Shown here in pieces: positions 13,062 to 30,770 of a stretch of DNA of 64,000 nucleotides. Source of the stretch: Planctomycetaceae bacterium (GTDB taxonomy: Bacteria > Planctomycetota > Planctomycetia > Planctomycetales > Planctomycetaceae); the NCBI GenBank assembly GCA_020426325.1, contig JAGQQG010000003.1, forward strand, positions 1 to 64,000. The letters are read 5' to 3'. Position 1 is the first letter of the stretch. Each line of letters starts with the position of its first letter. Both the position numbers and the translations under genes were made by a program. The notes under the pieces are model-generated. The model was not told the origin of the DNA and made no database searches. It saw only the letters and a list, made by a program, of their open reading frames with translations.

Positions 13062-16000
13062 ATGTTTGCTCGTCAATCTCGTTTCTCGTTATTGCTGATC
13101 TGTCTGGCTCTCGCTTTGCCATGTGTTGCGTTTGCACAGGAAGGGGGATCTGTCTCTGATTTTGACCGACTGCTCGATCCAGCGATTGCCAGTAGTCTGC
13201 AGTTGACTGAAGAACAGAAAGCCCGGCTCTCAGAGATCATCCAACAACGCGATGTTCGCCTCGCTGAAACTGCGGACGATCAGAAGGCCGCAATCAGAGA
13301 AGAAGCGGCAAGCACACTGGCTGATGTGCTCTCAGACGAGCAGCGTTCGCTCTTCGACTCGCTGTACCGCAAAAGGTTGCAGTTTAACTTCCAGTATCAG
13401 AAGTGGTCGGACGTCCTGGAGTGGATCGCGGAGGAGTCCGGGCTGTCACTGGTGCGTGATGCACCGCCCGCCGGTCAGGAAGCCCCACCCCCGGGAACTT
13501 TCAACTACACCGACACAAAAGAATATTCGCCGATCGAGGCCATCGATCTGTTGAACGGGTGGTTGCAGACGAAAGGGTTCGCCCTGTTGCGTCGCGACCG
13601 GCTGCTCATGTTGATCGACCTTTCCAACGGGCTTCCCAAGGGAGTGGTCCCGCGAATCCCGCTGGCGGAGTTACCCTTACGTGGTCGATTCGAGTTGGTC
13701 AGCGTGATGCTCCCGCTTGAAGGACGTGCCCCGGATGCGGTGACGGCCGAGATTGAACCGCTGCTGGGAGCTTACGGCTCTGTCGAATCCTTACCCGCCA
13801 ACAAACAGTTGCTGCTCACCGATACTGCTGGCAACCTGCTGACCGTGCAGCAGGTTGCGATGGGAGTGCCCGTTCCACCCGGTCCACAACCAAAGCCGCC
13901 CGAGCCTCCAAAGCCAGTGATGGAGGTCATCGCATTCGAGCATGCCAATCCGGAAAAACTCGAAGAAGTCCTCAAACAGTTTGTCAGCGGCACTGTGATG
14001 GTCGATGGGGATGCGCGACAAATTACTTTGAACGCGGTTCCCGACCAGATCGCCAATGCCAAGTCCATCCTCGCCCGATTGGAGGAGAATCAGGGGCCCA
14101 ACAAACAACCACGACTCAGTGTCTACCCGGCTCCTCAGCGAAACACGAACGAAGTCCTGAACACGCTTCAACTGGTCGCACCCGGCTCGCGAATTCGCGT
14201 CGATGATCAATCCCAGCAATTGCAGGTCTTCGCGACTCCCGAAGAGCAGGCGGTCATTGTCGCCACGCTCGAAAAACTGGGCAATGACTCAACGTCGGAC
14301 AGAGGTGATCGGCAGTTGCAGATCTACCCCATCACGGGCATGACACCGGAAGCGGCAGCCGAGGCACTCCGGGCCGTGATGCCACGCCTGCAATTGACAG
14401 TCGACTCGCAGGGCAAGCGGTTAATCGTCTTCGGTTCCCTGGCCGAACATCAGGCCGTGGCTTCGCTCGTTGAGGAAGTGGCGCGACAGCCGGAGGGGCC
14501 GAGTGCCCCAATGCTCAAGGCCTATCCCATCGACCGCTCTGTCGACACTGCACTTGTCACTTCGGTGATCACCGCAGCGGTGCCGCAGGCGGTCGTCACC
14601 TCAGATCCGGCACAAAATCGACTGCTCGTGGTTGCCCCTGCCGGAGAACAAGAGAAGATCGCAAAACTGGTCGAACAGACAGGGCAAAGGAACCCGGCAT
14701 CCAGGCAGTCTCTCGTGATTTATCCGGTCGATCGCGATGCGGACACGTCACTGATCAGTTCGTTGCTGTCGTCACTCGTCCCCACTGTGACGGTCAACAT
14801 TGACTCCAATCTCCATCGTTTGCTCATCATGGCCTCTGCGGCCGATCATGAGCGCGTGGTGGAGATCATTCAGGAAATCGGGCAAGGCACGCCGTCTTCG
14901 GTTCGCAAACTGATCGCATATCCCATCGACCGAGCACTCAGCCTCGACACCGTCTCCTCGCTGTTGGCGAACGTCGTGCCTCAGGCACAGGTCACGCAGG
15001 ATGCGACGAACCAGCGGCTGATTGTGATTGCAACGGAAGCGGACCACGCTCAGGTCACAAGCACGATTGAACAATTGTCGCGAGATGCGGGGGTCTCTTT
15101 GCCAGAGTTGAAGTTCTACACACTCAACAATGTCGATGGGACCAAGGCGACGTCGATTCTAATGTCACTGATTCCAGCCGCTTCACTGTCGTTTGATCCA
15201 ACGTCCAAGCGTCTGACCGTGACCGCCTCACCACGAGATCATGAGGTGATTACCGAGACGCTCGCCAAGTTGGAAGAAGTCTCGACCGATCGAGAGGAGC
15301 CAGCGCTGAAAGTGTATGACGTGACACCGACTCAGAAGTCACGGTTTACGTCTCTGTCAGCCAGTCTCGCTCCGCAACTGCCGCACATGCAGAACATCAG
15401 CGGAAACGAGCCGGGAGAACTGGCCGTGTGGGCGACACCCTCCGAGCATGCGGTCATCGAGCAGATTCTTGTCCAACTCAAACGTGAAATCCCCGCTGAC
15501 CTCAAATCCAAACTGGTCGTCTATCCACTGTTGAAGGTCGATGCGGCGAGCACAGCTGCTGTGCTGCAGCCACTGTTCCCGGACGCGACGATCACCGTCG
15601 ACCCGAAGGTCAATCGGCTGCAGATCTTCGCCAAACCGGCTCAGCACGAGACGCTCAAGCAAGCGATCGAACAACTCGATACCGACGTGCCAACCGCAAC
15701 AGAGATCAAGCTTCTGTCGTATCCGGTCAAGGGGATCAATCCTGCAATTGCAACTCAGTTGATCAGTCAGCAGTTTCCCAATGTCACCGTCCTCTCGGAC
15801 ACGACGGCCGAGGCATTGATCGTGCGGGCGTTGCCGCGCGAGCATGAACAGGTCTCGACACTGCTTGATGACCTGCGAGCCTCATCAAGTGCCGTCGCGG
15901 AGCATCGGGTTGTGATCTATCCCGCCGTCTCCGGAGACTCCGGGTCAATTTACAACTTCTTCGCCTCAGCCTTCCCCACGGCTCGCGTGCTGGTCGATCC

Positions 16001-19000
16001 CGCGACAAATCGGATGACTGTCTGGGCCTCAACAGAGGAGCATGAGCAGTTTCGTCGTGCTGTCGATGAGATGGTCAACAATGATACGAACAACGTGTCC
16101 CTGAAGTCGTACGACCTCAAGGGTGTTGCTTACAGCACGATGTCGACGCTGATGAGTCAGATGCTGAAGAGCCCCCGGTTTGCGATCAGCCCGGACGGTA
16201 AGCGGATGGTTGTCTGGGCCAGCGACTCCGAGCAGGAACTGGTCGGTAAGCTCGTCAGCGACCTCAACAGTGATGATGCTCGCCCTGAAGTCACACTCAA
16301 AACTTACGACATCGAAGGCGTCCCGCAGTCCACGATCTCGTCCATCATCGGACAGGTCCTGACAACCCCGAAGTACGCCTTCAGCCCGGACGGCAAACGC
16401 CTCGTGCTCTGGGCCGAGGACGAGGAACATCAACTGGTTGACAGCATCGTCAGGAATTTGACCGATGACGATTTTCGGGCTGCAAACGGTCAGGTCGCTG
16501 TGTTCAAGGTACAACCGCTCAGCACATCAGCCGCCCGCGCACTCCTCGCACCGATTGTCCCCACCGTGTCGTTCACCGACACGCCTGACGGCACGGCACT
16601 GCTCGCCTGGGTCGACGAGGCAGACCGCACACGCATTCGCGAGACCCTCGATCAGGTCCTCGCAGATAAGGAACTGGCCGGTCAAAGGCAGATGCGGATC
16701 TACGACATTTCCGAAGTCGGAGGTGCAAAAGCACAGCAGGTTCTGGCGACCGTCGTCCCCGGTGCACCGATGACATTGCCCGACGGGGGGAGAACGCTCA
16801 TTGTCATGGCTCGCGAGGATGAGCACCAGCAAATCACTTCAGCACTCGAGCAACTCACTCAAGAAGGACCGTTTCGCGAGGACCGGAAGATGGAACTCTA
16901 TTCCATCCGCGACCTCGGCCCCAATGTCAACAGCGTCATCAGCACCCTTGTGCCTCACGCCAGCATCAATGCAGGGCCGGTGGGCGACCAACTTGCCGTC
17001 ATCGCCACCGCTGAAGAGCACGCGAAGGTCCGAGAACTGGTCGACCGTCTGACACAAGCGAAACGCTTTCGCCCGCTAACAGTAGCCACTTACGAACTTG
17101 GCCGGGCTAACCCGGACGCCATTCGTCAGGCGTTAGCCCCCTTCATGAACAATGACGTACAAATCAGTGTCGATCCCAATACCCGCCGGGTCTTCGTTCG
17201 CACGTTCGCAGACAAGCAGCAGGATCTGGCGAACGTCATTAAGCAAATGGTCCAACCTCCCGCCGAGGATAAGGCACTCGTCACCAGAACTTACCGCACG
17301 AAAGTCGGCGATGCAGACGAAGCTGTCGAGGTTTTGACGGCTCTGATGCCCGATGCCAAATTTGTACGCGACGGTGACAACATGATGGTCGCGGCCACAG
17401 CGACTGTCGAACAGCAGGAGACGATCGCTGCTGTCCTCGAGGACATCCGGAAAACAGCACAGGAAGATGACGGGACGATTCCTCAGACCTATCCACTCAA
17501 AACGGCTGATCCAGATGCAGCCTATCAGGCGCTCGCTCAACTTTTTGCAAGGACTCCGAATGTCTCCTTCTCACTCGACCGGCCTGCGCGGACGCTTGTT
17601 GTGATCGCACGTCAGGAACAGCATGAAAAAATCCGTGCTCTCGTGGCTCAGCTCGACTCTCCGTCTGGAGAGGCTCCCGGCCGTATGGTCACCAGAACCT
17701 ACCGCATGAATGCGGGTGAGGCTGATGAGGCACAGCAGGTGCTTCAGGCACTGCTGCGATCGGCCACGATCATCACTGACGACAACCGCCGGGTGCTCGC
17801 AGCGACTGCGACCGAAGCTGAGCACGAGATCATCGCCTCAGTGATCGAAGAGATGCGAACCGAGACTGGAGGCGAAGGCGGACTGCAACCAGTGACCTAC
17901 CGTCTGAAAGTCGCCGATCCGCGCGACGTGCAGCGGGCTTTGGAGGAGCTTTTTTCGAAATCCCGGAATGTTTCTCTGTCTGTCGATCGAGGAACACGGA
18001 CGCTCGTTGCGATCGCCCTGCCGGAAGAACAGGAGACGATCAGAACTCTTATCGAACAGATCGACTCGACCAGTGACGATGGCCGCGGCCGTACGACACA
18101 AGTCTACAAGCTCAGACAGACCGACAACCGCACTGCTGTTCAAATGGTGCAGGACATGCTTGCGTTGATCGATCCTGACGCGAGTGTGACGTTCAATGAT
18201 CAATCTCGGCAACTGGTCGTTACCACAAGCCAGGAAGGGCATGCACAGGTCAGCGAACTCTCGACGCAACTTGGACAGCGCGATGAGCGAACAATTGAAG
18301 TTTTTCAACTGGAATATCTTGAACCGTTCGATGCAATGATCGCGATCGATACGGTCTTCTCCGACGACGGGACTGATCCCGAGGACCAGCCGTCGACGCA
18401 GACGAATGATGATGCTCAGCAACTGATCGTGCGCGGAACGCCCGAACAAATCACGCAGATCCGCACACTCCTGACGAAGATGGGCGAAACGTCGCTCGCA
18501 TCGGAAGGGGGGCCGTCACGTCGCCGCAATCTGCGAGTCATCCCACTCGATGGAAACATCGATCAGGCGGTGCAGCGCATCGAAAAACTTTGGCCACAGA
18601 TCCGTCGGAATCCGATCCGCATTCTCAAGCCCGGCTCCGTACAGCCGGCTCCGCAGCGCGACGTTCCCTCACAGCCGATGCCCCAGCCAGACAACGAACT
18701 CCCTCCTGGAGATGATAGCGCCCAAAGTCACCCAGGACGCAATAACCACGCCTCTCCGGTCTCACTCAATTCAACTCCCATCGACACATTCCCATCGGAG
18801 TTCATCGACGGCACGCTGCCTGTTGCCTTCTACCAGGATGAAGAAGAATCACAGCCTGTAGGGGAACCCGAAGCTCCGCCGGTTGTCATTATCCCGGGTC
18901 AGGATCGCATCACGATCGCATCGGAAGACACGGAAGCCCTCAACCAGCTGGAGGACCTGCTGAGAAGTGTGCTGTCCCCCGGTCGTCAACTACGGGGCAG

Positions 19001-19613
19001 AGATTTCACGGTTTACGCGCTGGAGAACGCTGGAGCAGCCGATGTCGCAGAGTCGCTGATGCAGTTCTTCTCCGGTCGTAGTCGCATTGCGACCGGGACG
19101 GTCCAGATCGTGCCCGATGAACGACTGAACGCATTGATCGTTTACGCTGGCCGGAGTGAACGACAGCACATCGAGTCACTGCTGGAAGTTCTCGACTCGC
19201 CCAACGTGCCGCAGACTCTCAATTCTTATGAGACACGCGTGGTCCGCCTTGAGTACGCCGATGCGGTCCGTGTCCGCAACACGCTCCAGGAGATCTATCG
19301 AGTTCAACTGCGAAACGGAGGTCGTCCGCCGACGATTCCGATTCCCGAGGGTGTCTCTCTGGAGGTCGTGACCGCCTTGAATCTGATCAATGCGGCAGCA
19401 GCAGCACCTCTGCTGACGATCGAGGATGATCCGACGACGAACTCGCTCGTCATGCTGGGACCGACCACCTTGCTCGACGAAGTGGAATCACTGATCCATG
19501 AACTTGATCAGTCGGTCGCCGAGAACCCTGCGCGCGGTGTCTCGATCATCCCGCTGAAGAGCACTCGCGCAACAAAAGTCATGCAGATCCTGCAACAACT
19601 CCGTTCGCGTTAG
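13062..19613 (+). CDS. Giant periplasmic protein of ~25 secretin-N (NolW-like) modules
   Basis: 2183 residues. A signal peptide (1-25, ending PCVAFA) sends it across the inner membrane. Residues ~45-100 are helical with LTEEQKARL and LSDEQRSLF (Spy/LTxxQ-like). Residues ~105-185 resemble a secretin N0/STN domain. From ~200 to the end there are about 25 modules of roughly 66 residues, each with the pattern [VIL]YP[IV]x...LxxLxPxAxVxxDxxxxRLxVxAxxxEHxxIxxxLxQL, as in the N1-N3 domains of secretins. A Pro-rich linker lies near 1853-1940. No pore-forming secretin domain follows and the last module is cut short (ends ILQQLRSR). It precedes gspE in the same direction. A periplasmic scaffold or ring partner of the GspD at 30942 is the natural inference. 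GGAAGG precedes the start. Confidence 0.85.
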   Translation: MFARQSRFSLLLICLALALPCVAFAQEGGSVSDFDRLLDPAIASSLQLTEEQKARLSEIIQQRDVRLAETADDQKAAIREEAASTLADVLSDEQRSLFDSLYRKRLQFNFQYQKWSDVLEWIAEESGLSLVRDAPPAGQEAPPPGTFNYTDTKEYSPIEAIDLLNGWLQTKGFALLRRDRLLMLIDLSNGLPKGVVPRIPLAELPLRGRFELVSVMLPLEGRAPDAVTAEIEPLLGAYGSVESLPANKQLLLTDTAGNLLTVQQVAMGVPVPPGPQPKPPEPPKPVMEVIAFEHANPEKLEEVLKQFVSGTVMVDGDARQITLNAVPDQIANAKSILARLEENQGPNKQPRLSVYPAPQRNTNEVLNTLQLVAPGSRIRVDDQSQQLQVFATPEEQAVIVATLEKLGNDSTSDRGDRQLQIYPITGMTPEAAAEALRAVMPRLQLTVDSQGKRLIVFGSLAEHQAVASLVEEVARQPEGPSAPMLKAYPIDRSVDTALVTSVITAAVPQAVVTSDPAQNRLLVVAPAGEQEKIAKLVEQTGQRNPASRQSLVIYPVDRDADTSLISSLLSSLVPTVTVNIDSNLHRLLIMASAADHERVVEIIQEIGQGTPSSVRKLIAYPIDRALSLDTVSSLLANVVPQAQVTQDATNQRLIVIATEADHAQVTSTIEQLSRDAGVSLPELKFYTLNNVDGTKATSILMSLIPAASLSFDPTSKRLTVTASPRDHEVITETLAKLEEVSTDREEPALKVYDVTPTQKSRFTSLSASLAPQLPHMQNISGNEPGELAVWATPSEHAVIEQILVQLKREIPADLKSKLVVYPLLKVDAASTAAVLQPLFPDATITVDPKVNRLQIFAKPAQHETLKQAIEQLDTDVPTATEIKLLSYPVKGINPAIATQLISQQFPNVTVLSDTTAEALIVRALPREHEQVSTLLDDLRASSSAVAEHRVVIYPAVSGDSGSIYNFFASAFPTARVLVDPATNRMTVWASTEEHEQFRRAVDEMVNNDTNNVSLKSYDLKGVAYSTMSTLMSQMLKSPRFAISPDGKRMVVWASDSEQELVGKLVSDLNSDDARPEVTLKTYDIEGVPQSTISSIIGQVLTTPKYAFSPDGKRLVLWAEDEEHQLVDSIVRNLTDDDFRAANGQVAVFKVQPLSTSAARALLAPIVPTVSFTDTPDGTALLAWVDEADRTRIRETLDQVLADKELAGQRQMRIYDISEVGGAKAQQVLATVVPGAPMTLPDGGRTLIVMAREDEHQQITSALEQLTQEGPFREDRKMELYSIRDLGPNVNSVISTLVPHASINAGPVGDQLAVIATAEEHAKVRELVDRLTQAKRFRPLTVATYELGRANPDAIRQALAPFMNNDVQISVDPNTRRVFVRTFADKQQDLANVIKQMVQPPAEDKALVTRTYRTKVGDADEAVEVLTALMPDAKFVRDGDNMMVAATATVEQQETIAAVLEDIRKTAQEDDGTIPQTYPLKTADPDAAYQALAQLFARTPNVSFSLDRPARTLVVIARQEQHEKIRALVAQLDSPSGEAPGRMVTRTYRMNAGEADEAQQVLQALLRSATIITDDNRRVLAATATEAEHEIIASVIEEMRTETGGEGGLQPVTYRLKVADPRDVQRALEELFSKSRNVSLSVDRGTRTLVAIALPEEQETIRTLIEQIDSTSDDGRGRTTQVYKLRQTDNRTAVQMVQDMLALIDPDASVTFNDQSRQLVVTTSQEGHAQVSELSTQLGQRDERTIEVFQLEYLEPFDAMIAIDTVFSDDGTDPEDQPSTQTNDDAQQLIVRGTPEQITQIRTLLTKMGETSLASEGGPSRRRNLRVIPLDGNIDQAVQRIEKLWPQIRRNPIRILKPGSVQPAPQRDVPSQPMPQPDNELPPGDDSAQSHPGRNNHASPVSLNSTPIDTFPSEFIDGTLPVAFYQDEEESQPVGEPEAPPVVIIPGQDRITIASEDTEALNQLEDLLRSVLSPGRQLRGRDFTVYALENAGAADVAESLMQFFSGRSRIATGTVQIVPDERLNALIVYAGRSERQHIESLLEVLDSPNVPQTLNSYETRVVRLEYADAVRVRNTLQEIYRVQLRNGGRPPTIPIPEGVSLEVVTALNLINAAAAAPLLTIEDDPTTNSLVMLGPTTLLDEVESLIHELDQSVAENPARGVSIIPLKSTRATKVMQILQQLRSR

Positions 19614-20132: not shown

Positions 20133-21845
20133 ATGACGACAACCCAAACAGCGATACTGACGTTGCAGAGTGACACTGCGCAACATCTCTCCTCAGCTGA
20201 CCTGCGACGTGCCCGCGACCTTTTTCGTGCAGACGGTCATTTCGAGCAATTTGCCTTTGAGCTGGGTCTCGATGACGAGCAACAGGCAATCGAACGGCTT
20301 GCCGACGCACTTGCCATTCCTTGGATCGACTTAACGGCATTCCCTGTCGATACGGAACTGGTCTCCCGCTTTCCGGTCCGCCTGATTCACCGTCATGGTG
20401 TATTTCCGTTGCGTGAGGTCAACAGCGTCCTTGAGTTGGCCATCGCCAATCCGTTCGACACCGATGCGATCGACGCAGCCGGTGCGGCCATGGAAATGAG
20501 TATTGTCCCGGTCATCGTCTCATCCAGCGAATTGGCAACCGTCATCAAATCGCAGTTCGGTGTGGGTGCGGAGACGCTGGACGGACTAATCGCACAGAAG
20601 GACGAAGAGACTGAAGGCGTCGAGATCGTCGGCGACATGGAGTGGGATGAGTCGGAAGCCGCTGAGATGGCTCAGCAGGCATCGGTCGTCAAGCTCGTCA
20701 ACGATATCCTCACCGAAGCCATCGAATCGCGGACCAGCGACATCCATCTGGAAGCTCAGCCGCACGGCATGAAGATTCGTTACCGCATCGACGGTGTCCT
20801 GCAGACACAGCCGGTGCCCCGGGAGTTGAATCGGTTTCAGGCAGCCATCATCAGCCGCCTGAAAATCATGTCGAAGATGAACATCGCCGAGAAACGCGTG
20901 CCGCAGGACGGTCGCATCAAGCTGCGGGTTTCCGGGCGTGAGGTCGATATTCGCGTGTCGATGATTCCCATGCATCACGGCGAAGGTGTCGTCATGCGTG
21001 TGCTCGATAAGGATGCCATGTCGTTCTCGCTCAAAGGCGTCGGCATGGAGCAGGAGACGTACGACACGTTCCGTGAACTCATTCGTATGCCGCACGGCAT
21101 CGTGCTCGTCACGGGTCCCACCGGCTCCGGAAAAACGACGACCCTTTACAGCTCACTCGCTGAGATTAAGAGCGAGCGCAACAAGATCATCACGACCGAA
21201 GATCCCATCGAGTATCAACTGGAAGGCATCAACCAGATTCAGGTGAATCCCAAGGTCGGACTCACCTTCGCTGCCGGACTGAGAAGCATTCTGCGTCACG
21301 ACCCGGATGTGGTGCTCGTCGGAGAAATCCGCGATCTCGAAACAGCAGAGAACGCGGTGCAGGCATCGCTCACCGGTCACATGGTGTTCAGCACGCTACA
21401 CACCAACGACGCGGCGGGTTCATTCATGCGTCTTACTGACATGGGTGTCGAGCCGTTCCTCGTCAGCAGCACGCTCGAAGGCGTGCTGGCTCAGCGGCTC
21501 GTCAGAACGCTCTGTGAAGAATGTCGTCAACCCTGGATGCCCCACCATGACGACGTCCCAGCGGACTTTCCTCTGGACGAAATCACTCACAGCCGACCCA
21601 TCTACGGGGCACGCGGTTGTCGCTCTTGCCGGGGAACAGGATATCGAGGACGATTGGGCATCTACGAGCTGCTTGTTGCCAACGAGAAGATTCGACAGTT
21701 GGCCAGTGAAAGAAGTTCGACGATCGAAATCAAAAAAGCCGCAGTCGCCAGTGGCATGAAGACGCTGAGAATGGATGGTTGGCGTAAGGTTGCCGCAGGT
21801 CTCACAACGATTGATGAAGTCTTGCGAGTAACGAAGTCCGACTGA
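20133..21845 (+). CDS. gspE: Type II secretion / type IV pilus assembly ATPase
   Basis: 570 residues. Cytoplasmic hexameric ATPase that powers pseudopilus assembly. An N-terminal GspE-N domain (~20-150) is followed by the RecA-like core: Walker A GPTGSGKTTTLY (~328), Asp box region ITTEDPIEYQLEGINQIQVN, Walker B-type LRHDPDVVLVGEIRDLETAE, and the His box TGHMVFSTLHTNDAAGS. A zinc-binding tetracysteine is made by CEEC (~463) and CRSC (~495). First gene of a nearly continuous gspEFGHIJK-L-M-D series. Confidence 0.95.
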   Translation: MTTTQTAILTLQSDTAQHLSSADLRRARDLFRADGHFEQFAFELGLDDEQQAIERLADALAIPWIDLTAFPVDTELVSRFPVRLIHRHGVFPLREVNSVLELAIANPFDTDAIDAAGAAMEMSIVPVIVSSSELATVIKSQFGVGAETLDGLIAQKDEETEGVEIVGDMEWDESEAAEMAQQASVVKLVNDILTEAIESRTSDIHLEAQPHGMKIRYRIDGVLQTQPVPRELNRFQAAIISRLKIMSKMNIAEKRVPQDGRIKLRVSGREVDIRVSMIPMHHGEGVVMRVLDKDAMSFSLKGVGMEQETYDTFRELIRMPHGIVLVTGPTGSGKTTTLYSSLAEIKSERNKIITTEDPIEYQLEGINQIQVNPKVGLTFAAGLRSILRHDPDVVLVGEIRDLETAENAVQASLTGHMVFSTLHTNDAAGSFMRLTDMGVEPFLVSSTLEGVLAQRLVRTLCEECRQPWMPHHDDVPADFPLDEITHSRPIYGARGCRSCRGTGYRGRLGIYELLVANEKIRQLASERSSTIEIKKAAVASGMKTLRMDGWRKVAAGLTTIDEVLRVTKSD

Positions 21846-21905: not shown

Positions 21906-23114
21906 ATGCCCGAGTTCGCCTACACAGCCCGCAACGCGAGCGGGCGAGACATTACCGGCCTCGTCTCTGCGGAGACGAAGCGGGATGTCCTCGCCATGCT
22001 GACTGAACGCGCCCTGTTCCCCATCAAAGTCGAGGAATCGAAGGCCAAAGGTGCGGGATGGGCTTTCAAAAGGCCAATCAAGGCTGAGGTCCTCGCTGCG
22101 ACCCTCACACAGCTTTCAGATCTGTTGCAAAACGGCGTTCCGCTGATGCGGTCGCTGGAAGTTCTCGCGGAACAGGCAACACATCCGCGACTCGGAGAGG
22201 TCCTGGACAAGATCCGTGGACGCATCGCAGAGGGCGAACCACTCAACGAAGCAATGGCCGCTCACCCCGACGTGTTCAACGAACTGACAGTGAACATCGT
22301 TCGCGCGGGAACAGAGGGTGCATTCCTCGAAGAGTCCCTCCGACAAACGGCAGAGTTCCTGGAACGTCAGGAGGAACTTCGCAGTCGAGTGCGGGGTGCG
22401 ATGGCGTATCCGGCGTTCCTTGCCACGGCTGGCTCGATCGTGACCATTGTTCTGATCGTCTTTTTTGTCCCCAAGTTCGCAGAGATCTTCGCTCAGCAGG
22501 AGGAACAGGGGACGCTTCCAGGACCAACAGTCGCCCTCTTGTTTCTCAGTAACCTTCTGGGCACATACGGGATCGTCATTCTTGCGGCATTCATCGGAAT
22601 TGTCATCCTGATTCGGAAATGGGCGGTGACTCCTCAGGGCCGGCAATCCATCGATCAGTGGAAGATCAAATTGCCACTCTTCGGGCCGATCTTTCTGAAC
22701 AGTGCTGTTTCCCGCTTCTGTCGCATACTCGGGACTCTTCTCCGCAATGGTGTCCCGCTCATCAAGGCTCTCGATATCAGCAGTGAATCGTCGGGCAACG
22801 TGGTCCTCGGACAGGCGATCCGAAACTCAGCAGAGAATGTTTCCTCTGGTGAGTCACTCTCCGGACCACTCGCCAGTTGCGGATTGCTTCCCTCGAATGT
22901 GATGGCCATGATCGCTGTCGCGGAAGAATCCAATAATCTCGAAAACGTCTTGAACAACGTCGCAGAAACCATTGATCGCAAGATCAGCCGGCAATTGGAC
23001 ACTATGGTCCGCCTGATCGAACCGGCTCTCCTGATGGTCATGGGAAGTGCGGTGCTGTTCGTGATCTCTGCCCTGCTGCTCCCTGTGTTCGAAATGAGCA
23101 CGAACATGGGATAA
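21906..23114 (+). CDS. gspF: Type II secretion inner-membrane platform protein
   Basis: 402 residues. Polytopic platform protein that contacts GspE. It has the duplicated GspF/PilC domain: first copy around LTQLSDLLQNGVPLMRSLEVLAEQ, second around FCRILGTLLRNGVPLIKALDISSES, with transmembrane segments near 170-195, 220-240 and 375-395. GGGGG sits just before the ATG, 60 bases after gspE. Confidence 0.95.
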   Translation: MPEFAYTARNASGRDITGLVSAETKRDVLAMLTERALFPIKVEESKAKGAGWAFKRPIKAEVLAATLTQLSDLLQNGVPLMRSLEVLAEQATHPRLGEVLDKIRGRIAEGEPLNEAMAAHPDVFNELTVNIVRAGTEGAFLEESLRQTAEFLERQEELRSRVRGAMAYPAFLATAGSIVTIVLIVFFVPKFAEIFAQQEEQGTLPGPTVALLFLSNLLGTYGIVILAAFIGIVILIRKWAVTPQGRQSIDQWKIKLPLFGPIFLNSAVSRFCRILGTLLRNGVPLIKALDISSESSGNVVLGQAIRNSAENVSSGESLSGPLASCGLLPSNVMAMIAVAEESNNLENVLNNVAETIDRKISRQLDTMVRLIEPALLMVMGSAVLFVISALLLPVFEMSTNMG

Positions 23115-23148: not shown

Positions 23149-23236
23149 ACGTGAACGAATCACATCAAAAAGCATCGAACGAACTCTCAACCACGGATCG
23201 AGCGTTCTTTTGAAAACAGACCTGAAAGGAAAAAAC

Positions 23237-23806
23237 ATGCACCGCTCAACTCGGCAAACCAAGCGACCCTCGTTACGTCACGGCTTCACGTTGACCGAAC
23301 TCCTGATCGTGATGGCGATCTTGGTATTGCTGGTCTCGATGGTCGGCCCCCGTCTCCTGGGAAGCAAGAAGAAAGCCGACATCAACGCGGCCAAGACTCA
23401 GATCGGCATGTTCCAGGCCGCGTTGGAGCGGTATGCCATTGACGTCAACACATTTCCCAACACGGAAGAGGGCCTCGACGCACTCGTGTCTGAACCGGGA
23501 GACTCAGAGGGTGGTGACTCGGAGAGCGAAGGCAGAAGCTCTTCATGGGATGGACCGTATCTCAAGCAGAATACGCTTCCCCTTGACCCTTGGGGCAACA
23601 GCTACGGTTACGAGTTTCCGCCAAAGCACAGCAAAGGAGACCAACCGGAAATCTGGTCATTCGGACCGGATGGCGAGGATGACACGGACGATGACATCCT
23701 GAGTTGGACCGGTGGTCGCGACGGCGAGGCAGACGGAGAAGACGGCGGTTCGTTTGACGATGACCGCTCCTCGGCTGAAACGACGTCCACGTTCGGCGAC
23801 GAGTAA
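23237..23806 (+). CDS. gspG: Major pseudopilin
   Basis: 189 residues from ATG 23237, which follows AAAGGA. The prepilin leader ends at G16, then FTLTELLIVMAIL with Phe+1 and Glu+5, the sites read by prepilin peptidase. The GspG core has ALERYAIDVNTFPNTEEGLDAL and the C-terminal DPWGNSYGYEFPP calcium-site region. Unusual for GspG, an acidic tail of about 40 residues (DDTDDDILSW...FDDDRSSAETT) extends past the core, and a Ser/Glu/Gly-rich loop sits after LVSEPGDSEGG. Both neighbouring gaps hold strong hairpins, consistent with separate dosage control of this high-copy subunit. Confidence 0.93.
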   Translation: MHRSTRQTKRPSLRHGFTLTELLIVMAILVLLVSMVGPRLLGSKKKADINAAKTQIGMFQAALERYAIDVNTFPNTEEGLDALVSEPGDSEGGDSESEGRSSSWDGPYLKQNTLPLDPWGNSYGYEFPPKHSKGDQPEIWSFGPDGEDDTDDDILSWTGGRDGEADGEDGGSFDDDRSSAETTSTFGDE

Positions 23807-23879: not shown

Positions 23880-24644
23880 ATGCAACGTCAACCTCCTCAG
23901 CGACTGATCCGAAAGCGGCGATCCGGGCTGCGTTGTGACGGATTCACGCTTGTGGAGTTGCTGATTGTGTGCGGATTGCTTGCAGCAATCGCGGCGATGA
24001 GTTGGCCGGCTGTCCGGGGCTCACTGGCCAAGAGCAGACTCAAGAAGGCCGCATCCGATCTCCGCACGACGATCGGACGTACGCGCAATGATGCTATCCG
24101 AAAAGGGCAATCCTTCAGCCTGCGATACGAACTGAATGGCAGCCGCTATCGCATTGAGCGTTTCTCCGGACAGACTCCTGACGGATCAGACGGAACTGGC
24201 GATCTGCCGGTCAGCTTGAACGATGGCTCCACCTTTGGTTTGGAACCATCTTCCAATGAAGAAGGTGACTTCGAGCCAATCGAGAAGGAATTGCCGGAGG
24301 GCGTGCGGTTCACGTCCGTCGATGTTGAATCCACGGATGCCTCGATTGAGTCATTTCCGATCGCCGGGGAACTCGCTCCGGCTGAAGAAATCCTAGGGAC
24401 GGAAGTGGCGGAATCGACGGAATGGTCCGAGCCGATCGTCTTTCACGCCAATGGACGGACTGACAATGCGCAGCTGCGGGTGATTAATCAGCGGGACTTC
24501 TTCATCGACCTCTCACTGCGAGGGCTGACCGGGATCGTGACCTCCACGCCACCTGCCCGAATTGTGACGAGCGACGAAAGCGACAGCCTGCTGAGTGACG
24601 GGGCCGACGACTCTCCGCTTCCGATGGAGGCAGACGAGCCATGA
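23880..24644 (+). CDS. gspH: Minor pseudopilin, GspH-like
   Basis: 254 residues. A basic leader ends at G21, then FTLVELLIVCGLLAAIAAM with Glu+5. Next comes the GspH-type segment KKAASDLRTTIGRTRNDAIRKGQSFSLRYEL, in which a long helix precedes a beta domain. The C-terminal half is acidic and of low complexity. It lies between gspG and a gspI-like gene and overlaps the latter by four bases (ATGA). Assignment to GspH rests on order and the DAIRKG-type pattern. Confidence 0.85.
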   Translation: MQRQPPQRLIRKRRSGLRCDGFTLVELLIVCGLLAAIAAMSWPAVRGSLAKSRLKKAASDLRTTIGRTRNDAIRKGQSFSLRYELNGSRYRIERFSGQTPDGSDGTGDLPVSLNDGSTFGLEPSSNEEGDFEPIEKELPEGVRFTSVDVESTDASIESFPIAGELAPAEEILGTEVAESTEWSEPIVFHANGRTDNAQLRVINQRDFFIDLSLRGLTGIVTSTPPARIVTSDESDSLLSDGADDSPLPMEADEP

Positions 24645-25246
24645 GGCGACTGCGCTCCAACGATGACACACCTGCCGCTTCACGTTCAGGGTTCTCTCTG
24701 ATCGAAGTGATTCTGGCAACCGCGATCCTGATGGGAAGCGTTGTCGTCCTGGGAGAACTCGCGGGTATCGGACGACGACAGGCCCAACGCGGTCGCGACT
24801 TCGCAGAGGCGCACGAGCGATGTGAACTGCTCCTTAATGAGATCCTCCTGGGACTGAAACCACTTCTTCCCGTTGAGCAGGAGCCTCTTGAGGAAGCGGT
24901 CAACCTGTTTCAGAAGATCAATGTCGACTTCGACAGCGAAGCGTTTGACGAGTTTGATCCGTTCGCACCGGACATGACCGACAGCGAGGCGTTCTCTTCG
25001 GATGGGGGTATCGATGAGCCCCAACCGGACTGGCTGTATTCAATCATTGTCGAACCACTTCCTGAACGCCCCGGCCTGGCTCTGCTGCGAGTGAGCGTTG
25101 AGCAGTCGCCAGAGAAATTTCCTCGGCCAGTCTACTTCGAGTTGTCCCGCTGGATTGAAGACCCGTCGCCCCAGGAAGAAAGCGAGTTTGGTTCGTTCGA
25201 TAACCCGCGTCAGCTGTCGTCAACCGGGAGAGGGGCCCTCCCATGA
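24641..25246 (+). CDS. gspI: Minor pseudopilin, GspI-like
   Basis: 201 residues. The leader ends at G17, then FSLIEVILATAILMGSVVVLGELAG with Glu+5, a typical GspI/PilV type of helix. The rest has the pattern of a small beta domain (WLYSIIVEPLPERPGLALLRVSVEQ) with acidic insertions. Overlaps both neighbours by four bases (ATGA at each end), so it is translationally coupled to gspH and gspJ. Confidence 0.83.
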   Translation: MRRLRSNDDTPAASRSGFSLIEVILATAILMGSVVVLGELAGIGRRQAQRGRDFAEAHERCELLLNEILLGLKPLLPVEQEPLEEAVNLFQKINVDFDSEAFDEFDPFAPDMTDSEAFSSDGGIDEPQPDWLYSIIVEPLPERPGLALLRVSVEQSPEKFPRPVYFELSRWIEDPSPQEESEFGSFDNPRQLSSTGRGALP

Positions 25247-26628
25247 GAAGAGCCGACAGCAAAGTCCGTTCGCCAGTCAGGCAGGCTGCATTCAGAGCCG
25301 CGTCCGTCAGGAAGCGGCCGCTCAGACGCGTTGCTCGATTCGACAACCATTCAAAGCACACACATGGCCGCTTCCTCACGGGCGCGGCTCTGATATCGCT
25401 TTCGTCAACGAGAGCACCGATCAAACGATCGGCATACACCTTGGTTGAGATGCTGATCGCTTCGATTCTGGTCGCGACTCTCATGGCGACGGTCTGGAAT
25501 CTGACTTCGCTATACTCCGGTTTCCTGACAGCTGGTCGCGCACAGGCGGAGGAGCAACAACTCGCCAGGTCGCTGATCGACATCATCTCCACAGACCTGC
25601 ATGCACTGACTCTCACAAGATCCGATCACTCCACAGTTGCCGTGCCCCCTGCGATGCCGTCGAATGAGTCGACGGGTTCGGGGAATGAGAGTCTGCTGCC
25701 CAGTTCTGCAGATTCATTCCCCGGTGCCGTTGAGTTGCCTGAGCTGGAGTCCGCCTCGGTCGAACTCAATCGATTGTTCGGAATTGACGGTGGCGGCAAT
25801 GTCTTGCCAACGTTCGACATTCGTGGCCGCGCTCACATGTTGACTCTGACCGTCTCTGAGATTGAGCCGGGTATCGAAGTTCTTCCCGTTGACGAAGAGA
25901 CCGGCATGCCGACGCTGGAGGAGGCACTGTCCCCTGATGCGAGCACACAGACATCAGAGCCGGATCAACTTCCCGGTCCTCCGCTGGCCCCCGAGTATCG
26001 GCGGGTCGTGTATGAGTTTGTGCCACCCCGGATGGCCGAAGGGACGAGCGCCGAGAGCGAGGACGATTTGTTACCCGGCTTGTATCGTTACGAAATTCCT
26101 GTCGAACATCTGAGCCTGCTGACACTCGACAACGAGACGTCCAGAATTGAGGCTCCACCTGAATTGAACAACGTCAGTCAGATGATTCGGTACCTGTCGG
26201 AACAAGGCATCACGTCGATCAAACAGGAGCATGTGCCGGAGGTCGTTGGCTGTGAATTCGAGTACCTGACCGACACCGGCTGGACCTCGTCATGGACACC
26301 GAAGGACGATGGACGGATGCTCCAGGCGGTCCGCATCCGTTTGCGGCTGCTCTCGCCGGACGAGTATCAGGAGTTAATGACGGCACTCGGTGTCACCGTC
26401 GACGACGATTCGGAAGGCGACATCCCGGCGACAGCCGAGGAACCCCTGGACCTGACCGCGGAGTTCGAGGCAGAACAGGATCCGTTTGAGCAATTTGAAC
26501 CGCGAACATTCGAGCGAATCGTTCTGTTGGGAACACCGAAGCGGTTGTCGTTAGGGGAAAGTGACGAAACATCCTTCGGGCAATCCTTTGACGCATTCAC
26601 ACCTCCACCCTTTGGAGGTCAGCCGTGA
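25243..26628 (+). CDS. gspJ: Minor pseudopilin, GspJ-like, with a 64-residue leader
   Basis: 461 residues. The pseudopilin helix is YTLVEMLIASILVATLMATVW with Glu+5 at residue 69. The processing site would be after Ala64, not the usual Gly. The leader of 64 residues is far longer than the 6-25 normal for prepilins, because a palindromic repeat (25294-25391) is translated within it. No ATG, GTG or TTG lies between the repeat and the helix, so translation must pass through the repeat. The periplasmic part is long, with LQAVRIRLRLLSP near the C-terminus as in GspJ. Overlaps gspI by four bases and gspK by four (GTGA). Confidence 0.83.
   Translation: MRRADSKVRSPVRQAAFRAASVRKRPLRRVARFDNHSKHTHGRFLTGAALISLSSTRAPIKRSAYTLVEMLIASILVATLMATVWNLTSLYSGFLTAGRAQAEEQQLARSLIDIISTDLHALTLTRSDHSTVAVPPAMPSNESTGSGNESLLPSSADSFPGAVELPELESASVELNRLFGIDGGGNVLPTFDIRGRAHMLTLTVSEIEPGIEVLPVDEETGMPTLEEALSPDASTQTSEPDQLPGPPLAPEYRRVVYEFVPPRMAEGTSAESEDDLLPGLYRYEIPVEHLSLLTLDNETSRIEAPPELNNVSQMIRYLSEQGITSIKQEHVPEVVGCEFEYLTDTGWTSSWTPKDDGRMLQAVRIRLRLLSPDEYQELMTALGVTVDDDSEGDIPATAEEPLDLTAEFEAEQDPFEQFEPRTFERIVLLGTPKRLSLGESDETSFGQSFDAFTPPPFGGQP
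25294..25391. repeat. Palindromic element C inside the gspJ leader
   Basis: Arms 25294-25319 and 25366-25391 (26 bases each) are near-perfect reverse complements, beginning AGAGCCGCG and ending CGCGGCTCT, with the shared core GGAAGCGGCC/GGCCGCTTCC. In another frame the right arm reads LPHGRGSD, a string I recall as very frequent in planctomycete repeat-derived open frames. Confidence 0.85.
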
Positions 26629-28226
26629 AATCAATTCGAGTATTTCCGCTTGCGGGTCATGGTGCTCGGCGCGGTTTTGTGTTGATCGTCGTGATGGTGC
26701 TGGTGATTTCCGTCGCGTTCGCCGGTTTCTCGTTCGTTGAGACCATGAGCAACGAGTACCGTGCCGTCCATATCAACGGCGACCTGCTGGAGGCTGAGCA
26801 AGTCCTCGCATCAGCGGAGGTGCTGCTTCGTCAGATCATTGGCATGCCTCGAGAGCAGCGGGCAATCATCGGAGGAGTGGAGAACAATCCGGAACAATTC
26901 CGGGATCAGGTCATCGCGGTCTCTGTCGAGGAAGGGGAACTTGAACAGAATGATCCTCTCAAGTGGCGGTTCAGTGTCGTCTCTCCTCCAGCCAATGAAG
27001 GGATGAATACGATTGAGGTCGCAGAAGTCAGCTATGGGTTGGGAAATGAATCAGCCAGATTCAACCTTGCTCAACTGATGACGATTGATCAGATGTCACC
27101 TCTCGGGGGACGCACTGCACTGATGAGCTTACCCGGCATGACCGAGATCGCTGCAGACAGCATCCTGGACTGGATTGACGCGGACGATTTGCCTCGTGAG
27201 TTTGGGGCTGAGTCGGAGTATTACCAGGAGTTGCCCAACCCATACCGACCCCGCAACAGTCTCCCGACGACGCTCGACGAACTGTTGCTCGTGCGGGGAG
27301 TTCATCGGGCATTGCTGTATGGACCGGACAAGAATCGCAACTTCCGCATCGATGACGATGAACAGCAGGCGGCACAACTCATTGAACAGCTGACGCAAAC
27401 GGAGGAAGAGACACAGCTTGAAGGGCAAGGTTGGACCGACTGTCTGACGCTTCATAGTGCAGAGCGAGACGACGATCGCTTTGGCGTCCCGCGGATCAAT
27501 CTCAATCAGCCCGATCTCAGCCAGCTTCACATGGAACTGTCCGAAGTACTGCCTGCCGAAGTCGTGGAATTCATCATTCACTGGCGGCAGTATGGTCCTG
27601 CTCCCGCCGGGAGTGCGAGTCTATCCGCAAACAACCCCGCGGACCTGTCGGTCCCCCCTCAGCACCTTTTTACGTCAGTCGTGGACATCGTCGAAGCCCA
27701 CACATTCGCAACGATGAGTCCCACTCCCGTTACGATCGTGAGTCCGGTCACACAGGCGTCACACGATGAGCTGACTCTGCTGCTCGATCACACGACGGTC
27801 CATGCCGAACCCGTGCTGAGGGGGCGTCTCAACATCAACATGGCGACTCAATCTGTGTTGATGACGATCCCCTTTTTCACGGAAGAACTGGTGGACCAGC
27901 TCATCAACCGACGGGAGACGCTGGATAAGGAGGCGATGAGCACTCCGGCCTGGCTGCTGAGTGAGCAGGTGTTGTCGCTGGAAACGTTCAAAGCGGTTCT
28001 GCCGTTCGTGACGACAGGAGGGGACGTGTTTCGGGCGCAGGTTGTGGCCTGGCGACCCATCGGAGGACCGTATCGACGCGTGGAGTGCCTGATCGATGGT
28101 GCAAGTGATCCGGTCAAGCGAGTAGGCTGGAGCGACCTGACGGTGCTGGGGGTCGGATTCTCAGTGGAATCGATCTCTGGAGAAGGAACTGAATCCCCCT
28201 TCGCGAATGAGATTTCCGGCCCATAA
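26625..28226 (+). CDS. gspK: Minor pseudopilin, GspK-like
   Basis: 533 residues from a GTG that overlaps the gspJ stop (GTGA). The N-terminus ends at G17, then FVLIVVMVLVISVAFAGFSFVE; position +5 is Val, and GspK is the family member known to lack Glu+5. The GspK-type periplasmic domain follows: EQVLASAEVLLRQ, SARFNLAQL, LMSLPGMTEIAADSILDWIDAD and LINRRE, which form the alpha-helical SAM-like insert. GspK caps the pseudopilus tip with I and J. Confidence 0.88.
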   Translation: MKSIRVFPLAGHGARRGFVLIVVMVLVISVAFAGFSFVETMSNEYRAVHINGDLLEAEQVLASAEVLLRQIIGMPREQRAIIGGVENNPEQFRDQVIAVSVEEGELEQNDPLKWRFSVVSPPANEGMNTIEVAEVSYGLGNESARFNLAQLMTIDQMSPLGGRTALMSLPGMTEIAADSILDWIDADDLPREFGAESEYYQELPNPYRPRNSLPTTLDELLLVRGVHRALLYGPDKNRNFRIDDDEQQAAQLIEQLTQTEEETQLEGQGWTDCLTLHSAERDDDRFGVPRINLNQPDLSQLHMELSEVLPAEVVEFIIHWRQYGPAPAGSASLSANNPADLSVPPQHLFTSVVDIVEAHTFATMSPTPVTIVSPVTQASHDELTLLLDHTTVHAEPVLRGRLNINMATQSVLMTIPFFTEELVDQLINRRETLDKEAMSTPAWLLSEQVLSLETFKAVLPFVTTGGDVFRAQVVAWRPIGGPYRRVECLIDGASDPVKRVGWSDLTVLGVGFSVESISGEGTESPFANEISGP

Positions 28227-28281: not shown

Positions 28282-29826
28282 ATGCCCAAAATTGTCGCCA
28301 TTGATCGTACGGAGAATTATCTCCGATATGTCATCGCCGATGTCGGCGCGCGCGGCAAGGTACAAGTTCAGGCAGCCGAGTCGCTGGCCATTAATGCCGA
28401 TGCGGAGTCTGTACCAAATCAGTTGGGTGAGCAATTACGTGAGGGCCTGACGAGGCATAAGGCAACGAAGGCAGTTGTGCTGTTCGGGGTCGGTCGCGGG
28501 GCGATTGAGACGGTTGACTTCACTGTGCCGATGGCGGAGGAAGCGGAACTTCCCGGCATGGTCCGTAATCTGGCGATGCGAAACCTGAGCAGCATCAGCG
28601 ACGAATCACCACTCGACTTCCTGGCCTCCGCACCCAAGCCAGATGGATCTCGGAACGTCATCGCGATGGCACTCCGTGAGGAGGTGCGACGTGAGCTGAA
28701 CTTGCTGGCGGGCGCCGCCCAGATAAGGTCGTCCCGCATCCTTGTGCGTCCGCAAGAATTGCGTGCCTTTACAACTGCAGAAGAGTCGTTGTCGGAAGTG
28801 ATGTTGCTCGTCAGCCGATCGGATCAGATGGCGGATGTTTTGCTGTTGCACCCGCAAGGGACAGCCCTCCCCCGTTCGATCCGCCTTCCGGAGACGTCCT
28901 CGTCTGCCAAGTCTGCACAGCTAACGGTAAACGAGATTCGTCGCACATTATTCTCGTTGCCGGTTGATGACTTTGACGCGACTCAAATCGATCAAATCCT
29001 GCTCCTCTGCGGTGAGGGCGAACTTCCTTACCTTGCTACGGAGTTGGGAACAGCGCTCGATGCCCGGGTTCAGCGGCGTGATCCGTTTGACATCCCCGGA
29101 GTGACGTGCCAATTTGAAGTCACGAACCGCTCGCAGTTCGCACCACTGATCGGGATGTTGGTCAATGAGTCACTCCAACAACATCCGATCGACTTTCTCA
29201 ATCCGCGAAAACCACCTGCTCCCGTCAATCGTCGCAAAACGGTGTTGAGTGCGGTCGCTGCGGCAGCCATGGTGATCGGGGGGGGCTGGTATTACGTCAA
29301 TTCTCAATTCGCAGAAGTCGATGACGAAAATGCCCGTCTGAACACAAGGTTACGTGAACTCAAAGAGACCGTCGAGAAAGTCGAGCCGAAACTCGCGCTC
29401 GCAAAAGGTCTGTTGAGTTGGGAACGGTCTCGTATCAGCTGGCTGGACGAACTTCGTGACCTGACTCTGCGCATGCCTTCCAGTCGCGATCTGACAGTGC
29501 AGCGGTTCTCAGCGTCGGCATCTCGTGATGGCGGAGCGAATGTGTCGTTCGGCGGCGTCGCACAGGCACCCGAGTTCGTCAGTGAGATGGAAGACGACCT
29601 GCGTGACAAGCATCACCTCCCGCGGACCCCCGGTTTGCGAGAGCGTCAGAATGGTGATCAAACGGTCTGGACGTTTCAGACATCCATGTCGATCACTGCC
29701 CGCAAACCGGACGAATACATTCGTCATCTGCCTCCGTCAGAAACACAACCGACCGATACTGAGCCTGTTCAGGATGAAGAGATATCCGAGGTTTCCGAGA
29801 CGGATGAGACTTCTGACAAACCGTAA
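28282..29826 (+). CDS. gspL: Fused GspL/PilM-PilN-like inner-membrane protein
   Basis: 514 residues. Residues 1-~290 resemble the actin-like cytoplasmic PilM/GspL fold (KIVAIDRTENYLRYVIADV at the start, IDQILLLCGEGELPYLATELG at the phosphate-2-type segment). A single transmembrane segment at ~321-340 (VLSAVAAAAMVIGGGWYYV) is followed by a coiled coil (ENARLNTRLRELKETVEKV) and a periplasmic PilN-like ferredoxin-like domain. The tail is acidic and disordered. In T2SS the cytoplasmic domain binds GspE. One chain covers what PilM plus PilN do in pili. Confidence 0.83.
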   Translation: MPKIVAIDRTENYLRYVIADVGARGKVQVQAAESLAINADAESVPNQLGEQLREGLTRHKATKAVVLFGVGRGAIETVDFTVPMAEEAELPGMVRNLAMRNLSSISDESPLDFLASAPKPDGSRNVIAMALREEVRRELNLLAGAAQIRSSRILVRPQELRAFTTAEESLSEVMLLVSRSDQMADVLLLHPQGTALPRSIRLPETSSSAKSAQLTVNEIRRTLFSLPVDDFDATQIDQILLLCGEGELPYLATELGTALDARVQRRDPFDIPGVTCQFEVTNRSQFAPLIGMLVNESLQQHPIDFLNPRKPPAPVNRRKTVLSAVAAAAMVIGGGWYYVNSQFAEVDDENARLNTRLRELKETVEKVEPKLALAKGLLSWERSRISWLDELRDLTLRMPSSRDLTVQRFSASASRDGGANVSFGGVAQAPEFVSEMEDDLRDKHHLPRTPGLRERQNGDQTVWTFQTSMSITARKPDEYIRHLPPSETQPTDTEPVQDEEISEVSETDETSDKP

Positions 29827-29891: not shown

Positions 29892-30770
29892 ATGAAATTC
29901 AACCGTCAACAAGTCCTGCTGATCGTGCTCGCCGGCTTTGGATTGCTGCGCGCGGGGGACTGGGCATTGACGACGCTGATTCAGGGACCCCTCGATCAGC
30001 GGAAGGCGAAAACTCGTGCACTTGAGAAGGAAATTGAAAAAAACGAAAAGATCTTGGCTGATGGACGCAAGGCCGGAAAGTTCCTCGAAGAATGGCGACA
30101 GCAATCGCTGCCTGCCGACACGGAAGTCGCCCGATCGCTGTACCGCTCCTGGCTGCTCGAACGTGTGGAGGCGGCACATCTGCTTTCCCCGACGGTTGAT
30201 TCACGGAGCCCGTCGAATCGTGGCCGGTATCGCGTTCTGCCGTTCAGCATGCGGGCACGCGGCACGCTGGATCAGTTCGTGCAGTTCCTGTTCGATTTCT
30301 CGGAAACGGGCATCCTGCATCGGATCCAGTCACTCGATCTGAACCCGGCCGGGTCATCAGGATTCTTCGACATCACGCTCAGCATCGAAGCGGTCATGAT
30401 CCCGGGGACAGAGGCGGACGAGTTGAACACAGAACCTTCAGATTGGCTCGTCTCCGATTTCGTCAGCGATTACCAAGTGATCAGCCGTCAGAACATCTTC
30501 GGTGTCGGAATGGCCGTCGATCCGCGGCGTCAGACATTCGTGACCGCGATCACTCGCAGTAATGATCAGCCGCAGGTCTGGTTCAAGGTGCGTGATCAGG
30601 ACCAGACTTTAAAACTCCGCGAGGGAGATACGATCGACGTCGACGATTTCCGTGGCACGATCGCGGAGATCCTCGAACATGACGTGACGATCGACGCCGA
30701 TGGCGAACGCTGGTTGCTCTCGATCGGCGACAGTTTGGCCGATGCTTCGGCTGTGTCGCCCGAACGCTGA
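29892..30770 (+). CDS. gspM: Fused GspM/PilO-like and GspC-HR/PilP-like protein
   Basis: 292 residues. A transmembrane segment (7-24), a coiled coil (KAKTRALEKEIEKNEKILADGRK), then a PilO/GspM-like domain (FSMRARGTLDQFVQFLFDFSETGILHRIQSLDL). After residue ~195 the chain turns to a GspC homology-region/PilP-like pattern: SRQNIFGVGM, then a beta domain with LKLREGDTIDVDDFRGTIAEILEHDVTIDADGERWLLSIGD. In standard T2SS GspC is a separate gene that touches the secretin N0 domain; here the linker seems to be fused to GspM. No other gspC is in the window. Confidence 0.78.
   Translation: MKFNRQQVLLIVLAGFGLLRAGDWALTTLIQGPLDQRKAKTRALEKEIEKNEKILADGRKAGKFLEEWRQQSLPADTEVARSLYRSWLLERVEAAHLLSPTVDSRSPSNRGRYRVLPFSMRARGTLDQFVQFLFDFSETGILHRIQSLDLNPAGSSGFFDITLSIEAVMIPGTEADELNTEPSDWLVSDFVSDYQVISRQNIFGVGMAVDPRRQTFVTAITRSNDQPQVWFKVRDQDQTLKLREGDTIDVDDFRGTIAEILEHDVTIDADGERWLLSIGDSLADASAVSPER

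Follow-up and report, generated by a model that had tools for sequence, protein, structure and literature searches.

GspD, the secretin of the type II secretion system (T2SS; TIGR02517; PDB 5wln, 5wq7, 3ezj and 6hcg), binds the HR domain of GspC through its N0 domain, and PulD with bound HR domains extends about 20 nm into the periplasm (PMC6882859). A longer stack is found in Thermus thermophilus PilQ (N0-N5), where six stacked N rings cross a wide periplasm (PMC5745081), and the N-domain of XcpQ self-assembles into rings without a pore (PMC5646246). Here we report on a 64,000-nucleotide stretch from a Planctomycetaceae bacterium (GCA_020426325.1, contig JAGQQG010000003.1, positions 1 to 64,000; hereafter the window), in which a T2SS gene cluster begins with a gene for a giant, pore-less array of secretin N-modules. 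To our knowledge, all known secretins carry their periplasmic rings and their pore on one chain. Our analysis suggests, with a probability of roughly 0.6, that the array derives from GspD and serves as a pore-less subunit in a two-chain T2SS secretin, forming an inner-membrane-facing periplasmic vestibule that is docked through N0.

The gene is a single stop-free open frame on the forward strand (13062..19613) encoding 2183 amino acids (aa). An initial annotation, made from the letters and a list of open frames, had described a signal peptide, an N0-like domain and about 25 repeats of roughly 66 residues without a pore, and all of these held up. The signal peptide is evident in the translation (MFARQSRFSLLLICLALALPCVAFA, with Q as the next residue). 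Secretin_N (PF03958) matched with an E of 9.2e-113 and 369 bits against a gathering threshold of 28.2, with 16 stretches passing independently. A hidden Markov model (HMM) derived from the repeats placed 23 tandem modules at residues 293-1807, followed by C-terminal modules that belong to a closing C-block. When the N1 module, a split module and two C-terminal modules are included, the total comes to about 27 complete N-type modules plus a half module. Module spacing is 66 residues (standard deviation 2.4; 19 spacings within 64-68) although the median identity between modules is just 23%, a regularity far beyond chance. Pfam's secretin pore family, PF00263, had no match across the 2183 aa, no frame continues beyond the array's end, no pore lies in the gap up to gspE, and in a whole-genome secretin scan GspD was the sole pore at the window locus.

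Compared with the nearest described proteins, the array resembles GspD in its signal peptide, its N0, its N1-type modules, its place in a T2SS cluster and its TIGR02517 score of 224 bits over the N domains. That score is below the curated equivalog cut-off of 351.35, the best stretch covers positions 127-333 of the 600 in the model, the array has about 27 N-modules instead of 3, and a true GspD is encoded separately in the same cluster. Because it has no pore, the array protein is not a GspD by membership, though N0 and the N1-type modules are present and it probably functions within one. The array may work similarly to PilQ, whose N-domain stack also extends over a wide periplasm, but PilQ has six rings and a pore on one chain, whereas the arrays have from 27 to at least 48 modules and no pore. 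The XcpQ N0-N1-N2 fragment that assembles into rings is likewise a pore-less secretin N region, but it is a laboratory fragment and the array is a natural gene. Pfam side matches to KH_DEAH11 and Maelstrom are most simply put down to a shared KH-like fold or to chance.

Structure prediction agreed with the profile searches. A profile of the N-terminal 160-residue region aligned across relatives (A1) matched the N0-N1 of GspD and PilQ in the PDB (5mp2, E 4e-8; 5wln, E 6e-7, profile positions 4-158). AlphaFold2 modelled residues 101-480 as N0, N1 and three beta-alpha-beta-beta-alpha modules with a predicted local distance difference test score (pLDDT) of 83, and the top Foldseek match was XcpQ N0-N1-N2 (E 2.8e-10), followed by other T2SS secretin N regions. 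The predicted N0 superposed on GspD N0 from enterotoxigenic Escherichia coli (4jtm_A; Z 11.2, 2.1 Å over 80 residues) and on GspC-bound GspD N0 (3oss_D; Z 9.8, 1.8 Å over 77 residues), and single array modules on GspD and PilQ N domains (Z about 9, 1.6-1.8 Å). TM-scores for the whole model were low even though individual domains superposed well, probably because relative domain placement differs. Thus the repeats have the secretin-N fold by profile and by model, and the domain first called N0-like is, on the same grounds, a true secretin N0.

The array is a real gene under purifying selection. Orthologues in two congeners are 2167-2174 aa long, 74-83% identical and have the same module number, and the ratio of nonsynonymous to synonymous substitution rates (dN/dS) is 0.09-0.11 for the array, 0.06-0.07 for gspE and 0.08-0.13 for gspD. 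The block with the lowest ratio of nonsynonymous to synonymous differences (pN/pS, 0.04) covers N0. The absent pore and the ending in a half module could be read as marks of a decaying gspD copy or an assembly artefact. We find this very improbable given a dN/dS of about 0.1, lengths of 2167-2183 aa in three species, the fact that giant arrays from different genera and families stop at the same point, and the occurrence of arrays in many independent assemblies.

The family is widespread in planctomycetes. An array match was found in 35 of 40 relatives, including every sampled member of the window's own family, the five without a match being four genomes of family f2 and one of f4. Across the phylum, 95 of 294 genomes have the N0-N1 profile. 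When 84,980 species were scanned with a pattern, 107 relatives emerged; among the 80 listed, all whose record titles name a taxon are planctomycetes (such as Thalassoglobus neptunius, Alienimonas chondri, Schlesneria, Fuerstiella and Thermogutta), and two are titled only 'bacterium'. Giant arrays, which group as a single clade in the N0 tree (support 98/88), have at least 15 modules at a strict 66-residue period and stop at the half module or near it. Short ones are about 900-1,500 aa long, mostly with a Gly/Arg-rich tail. The same C-terminal block closes both versions. Arrays have grown by duplication: in genome G004 a 202-residue block spanning three modules has been copied, with identities of up to 92%, and in G209 three neighbouring modules are 70-75% identical. 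The longest have at least 46 and at least 48 modules, and both end at contig edges (loci L161 and L185). Literature searches, with most subscription papers outside reach, found no description of pore-less secretin-N arrays, and as far as they reach the protein is undescribed.

The GspD of the window offers a complement to the array. Its signal peptide runs straight into an N-module with no N0 in between, as judged by HMM and translation, and it has 7-9 N-modules by HMM, so that the nine counted by the initial annotation were about right. Unlike the array, it matches both Secretin_N and the pore family in Pfam. GspDs without N0 number 17 with that of the window, and all are from array-bearing genomes (G001, G002, G004 and G021; the giant systems of G209 and G313; G264, G305, G029, G033, G254, G317, G228 and G276; and both GspDs of G239). 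Absence of N0 was judged by profile and by eye, and a very divergent N0 is excluded by space only where the first module closely trails the signal peptide; in G029 the first module follows a long linker. In these systems the pore-less array carries the sole N0 found. A secretin scan of 20 genomes found a large GspD of about 1,200-1,500 aa in 15 of 15 array-bearing genomes, and neither a large GspD nor a Secretin_N match at E 1e-5 in any of the five array-less ones. Array-less relatives of the same class (G027, G030 and G034; L246-L248) have another large secretin of 1545-2180 aa with a weaker pore match and no detectable N-modules. The N0-less GspDs resemble KilC, the secretin of a Tad-like system in Myxococcus, which also lacks N0, but we found no mention in that report (PMC8460266) of a second protein with N0 and an N-module array.

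Elsewhere in the phylum the same parts occur on one chain. GspDs that combine N0, many modules and a pore are 2175-3269 aa long in the same class (L043, L044, L050 and L051) and 3575-5073 aa long in distant families (L131-L135), the latter having 21-28 confidently scored modules and more by a refined model. These single-chain giants, most of them with the L-M-D gene order, share N0 and numerous N-modules with the array but have the pore on the same chain and a looser spacing (about 68-78 where measured). In L131-L135 (for example L134, G063:C2 1658001-1678000), N0 is at the start, the pore is at the end and gspL/M-type genes are upstream in most. Genome G249 has such a giant secretin in two genes 40 nucleotides apart (L130, contig C165, 3660-16052), the first encoding N0 and an array (1698 aa, with a clean stop at its end) and the second encoding modules and a pore behind its own signal-peptide-like start (2418 aa). 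Other members of its family have one chain of 4830-5000 aa, and G249 groups with the single-chain 4830-aa GspD of G184 in the pore tree (100/98) and the N0 tree (84/90). Since the split is nested with a single-chain relative, the two-chain state appears to have more than one origin, that in G249 being apparently separate and independent.

True fission fits G249 only. As a general origin, simple fission was rejected for the window system, where the array C-block is homologous to the pre-pore residues 505-717 of GspD (hhalign E 3e-18) and both chains therefore hold equivalent modules. A second register pairs both split modules (GspD 250-618, E 8e-16). Because of this homology, the sequences lead us to favour a duplication of gspD after which one copy lost the pore and the other N0.

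The window cluster reads array, E, F, G, H, I, J, K, L, M, D, where gspF, H, I, L and M are named from gene order. As the initial annotation had expected of relatives, the array is the first gene ahead of gspE in two congeners as well as in the window. A second T2SS-type cluster of the same genome (contig C22) likewise opens with a pore-less array of 1152 aa, immediately ahead of gspE, and closes with its own GspD. Beyond these the expectation fared less well. Among loci with sufficient downstream sequence, 9 of 15 with giant arrays and 26 of 61 with short arrays have gspE no more than 4 kb downstream; GspD is about 2 kb upstream in two further giant-array loci, and most f1 loci sampled are also linked to T2SS genes. 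The array is thus strongly linked to gspE in the window's own family but only loosely in others. The suggestion that the array may be an undescribed T2SS component accordingly stands as to novelty in the literature searched and as to co-occurrence with a large GspD, and less so as to linkage.

We hypothesize that in these planctomycetes the T2SS secretin is shared between two polypeptides. GspD would contribute the outer-membrane pore and the outer N-modules, having lost its N0, and the array would contribute N0, N1 and a long, evenly spaced series of N-modules. Several array copies would stand side by side through their ring-building N-modules to form a periplasmic vestibule or tube, which would prolong the GspD rings toward the inner membrane, with N0 docking on a GspC-type domain of the assembly platform, probably that of the GspM-like protein at 29892. 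The number of modules may set the reach across the deep planctomycete periplasm; at one ring per module and about 3 nm each, 27 modules would span an estimated 80 nm or so. A periplasmic scaffold had already been proposed in the initial annotation, and we too infer a scaffold or vestibule, but that annotation had missed that the array is a GspD paralogue carrying the N0 absent from its partner GspD, and that in other planctomycetes all of these parts make up one giant GspD.

Several observations weigh against this model. Nine f1 GspDs of short systems, of the type on contig C22, keep a divergent N0 despite an array, so that equating the array with the missing N0 would be too simple, and a replacement of N0 everywhere is ruled out. 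Model confidence was low for the C-block and half module (overall 65), owing to the disordered insert and the uncertain half module, and the alignment of the C-block with GspD has two competing registers. The gap of 520 bp between array and gspE holds a weak promoter-like site, so that the two need not be co-transcribed. Searched as a profile against the PDB, the C-terminal domain of the GspM-like protein matched designed Pizza proteins and other unrelated chains, and Pfam gave T2SSB in 2 of 11 GspM-like members (E 0.0019); neither search confirmed a GspC-HR fold, which we retain as a conjecture. Finally, many Pirellulales array copies have no T2SS gene nearby.

This last observation would suit a periplasmic giant that descends from GspD, does a job other than secretion, such as envelope spacer or binding scaffold, and lies beside T2SS genes by history. 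So would the LTXXQ segment near the N-terminus, the Gly/Arg-rich tails and the additional kinds of array, about 900-1,100 aa long, that several genomes carry with no extra large GspD. We nevertheless consider such a role unlikely, as N0, a docking domain, is within the most constrained block, an N0-less GspD is always accompanied by an array in the sampled genomes, both T2SS clusters of one genome begin with an array, and a single-chain GspD has been split in G249. Alternatively, the array could be an assembly or targeting factor for GspD, similar to a pilotin or GspB or acting as a mould, which would co-assemble transiently with GspD N-modules to guide ring formation or keep pores closed and would be absent from the finished channel. 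In Dickeya, OutB and N0 are required for secretin targeting and gating (PMC9239104). Homologous array modules could pair with those of GspD, an array might use its half-module end to cap a GspD module or to change places with one, and unlinked copies suit an accessory role. We regard this as rather unlikely, since a strict 66-residue period kept up over at least 48 modules in the longest array and the existence of single-chain giant GspDs point to a structural role in setting length, and the assembly factors that we are aware of are small.

If the two chains do make one machine, they would represent a new secretin architecture, with N0 lost from GspD and carried by a second protein, which has at least 48 modules in its longest form, and a possible explanation of how an envelope-spanning machine copes with a deep and variable periplasm. 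In planctomycetes the periplasm is strongly enlarged, and crateriform structures link the outer and inner membranes (PMC5394234). The shared secretin would be a testable candidate for such crater-like contacts. We speculate that it forms a length-adjustable modular tube with tens of rings per machine that helps to build them, but we think this quite unlikely; our searches found no report on the composition of planctomycete crateriform structures, and as a firm claim the role has no direct support. The array-less f2 genome G030, which we take to be Isosphaera pallida, weighs against a universal role in craters. Isosphaera cells have pits. A short array is apparently present in G217, presumably Planctopirus limnophila. 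As P. limnophila is genetically modifiable (PMC11958385), the question is open to experiment.

Table 1. Features of the array gene and the T2SS cluster that follows it, with position in the window, strand and basis of assignment.
Signal peptide, residues 1-25	13062..13136	+	cleavage after AFA, read by eye from the translation
Helical LTXXQ-type (Spy/CpxP-like) segment, residues 26-105	13137..13376	+	Pfam PF07813, E 5e-5
Secretin N0 domain, residues 106-187	13377..13622	+	profile A1 against PDB, AlphaFold2 fold, lowest-pN/pS block
N1-type module, residues 212-270	13695..13871	+	AlphaFold2 beta-alpha-beta-beta-alpha at model residues 112-170; within profile A1
23 tandem Secretin_N modules, 66-residue period, residues 289-1807	13926..18482	+	Pfam, repeat HMM, AlphaFold2 of first three modules
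C-block module split by Pro-rich disordered insert, residues 1823-1972	18528..18977	+	alignment A4; insert pLDDT <45
C-block module C2, residues 1981-2045	19002..19196	+	repeat HMM, alignment A4, hhalign
C-block module C3 with long loop, residues 2056-2150	19227..19511	+	repeat HMM, alignment A4, hhalign
Terminal half module (beta-alpha only) and stop	19530..19613	+	alignment A4, C-termini; end point common to giant arrays
gspE	20133..21845	+	T2SSE PF00437, MshEN
gspF	21906..23114	+	T2SS gene order and matching open reading frames of related clusters
gspG	23210..23806	+	T2SSG, N_methyl
Pseudopilin genes gspH, I, J and gspK	23880..28226	+	N_methyl, weak T2SSJ, T2SSK; H/I by order
gspL-like	28282..29826	+	position; no Pfam match above cut-off
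gspM-like, putative C-terminal GspC-HR/PilP-like beta domain (candidate N0 receptor)	29892..30770	+	position and sequence reading
GspD, N-modules and pore, no N0	30942..34913	+	PF00263 residues 990-1162; TIGR02517 384 bits (cut-off 351)

Some further features were observed in the arrays and their neighbors. The PF07813 score of the window array is exactly at the gathering cut-off and covers only a small N-terminal part; in the short array of contig C22 the LTXXQ segment between signal peptide and N0 is longer and clearer (L006 10189-11028; E 2e-10). The array, GspD and the downstream protein share a short motif like Q-Q-x-A-F/W-Q (VAFYQ, IQQTAFQQ, IQQASWQ) within low-complexity stretches (approximately 18816-18842, 32073-32096 and 35591-35611 of the window), and the array copy is not kept in more distant giant arrays. 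Short arrays (L101, L107, L111, L120 and others) end in long Gly/Arg-rich low-complexity tails, often ...GRGGR, which giant arrays mostly lack. More pore-less subtypes of about 900-1,100 aa lie away from gspE, with no extra large GspD of their own (L124, L127, L128 and L129). The C22 operon (L006 and L036) combines its short array with a GspD whose N0 is divergent and with a GspM-like protein into which immunoglobulin-like (He_PIG/cadherin) domains are inserted.

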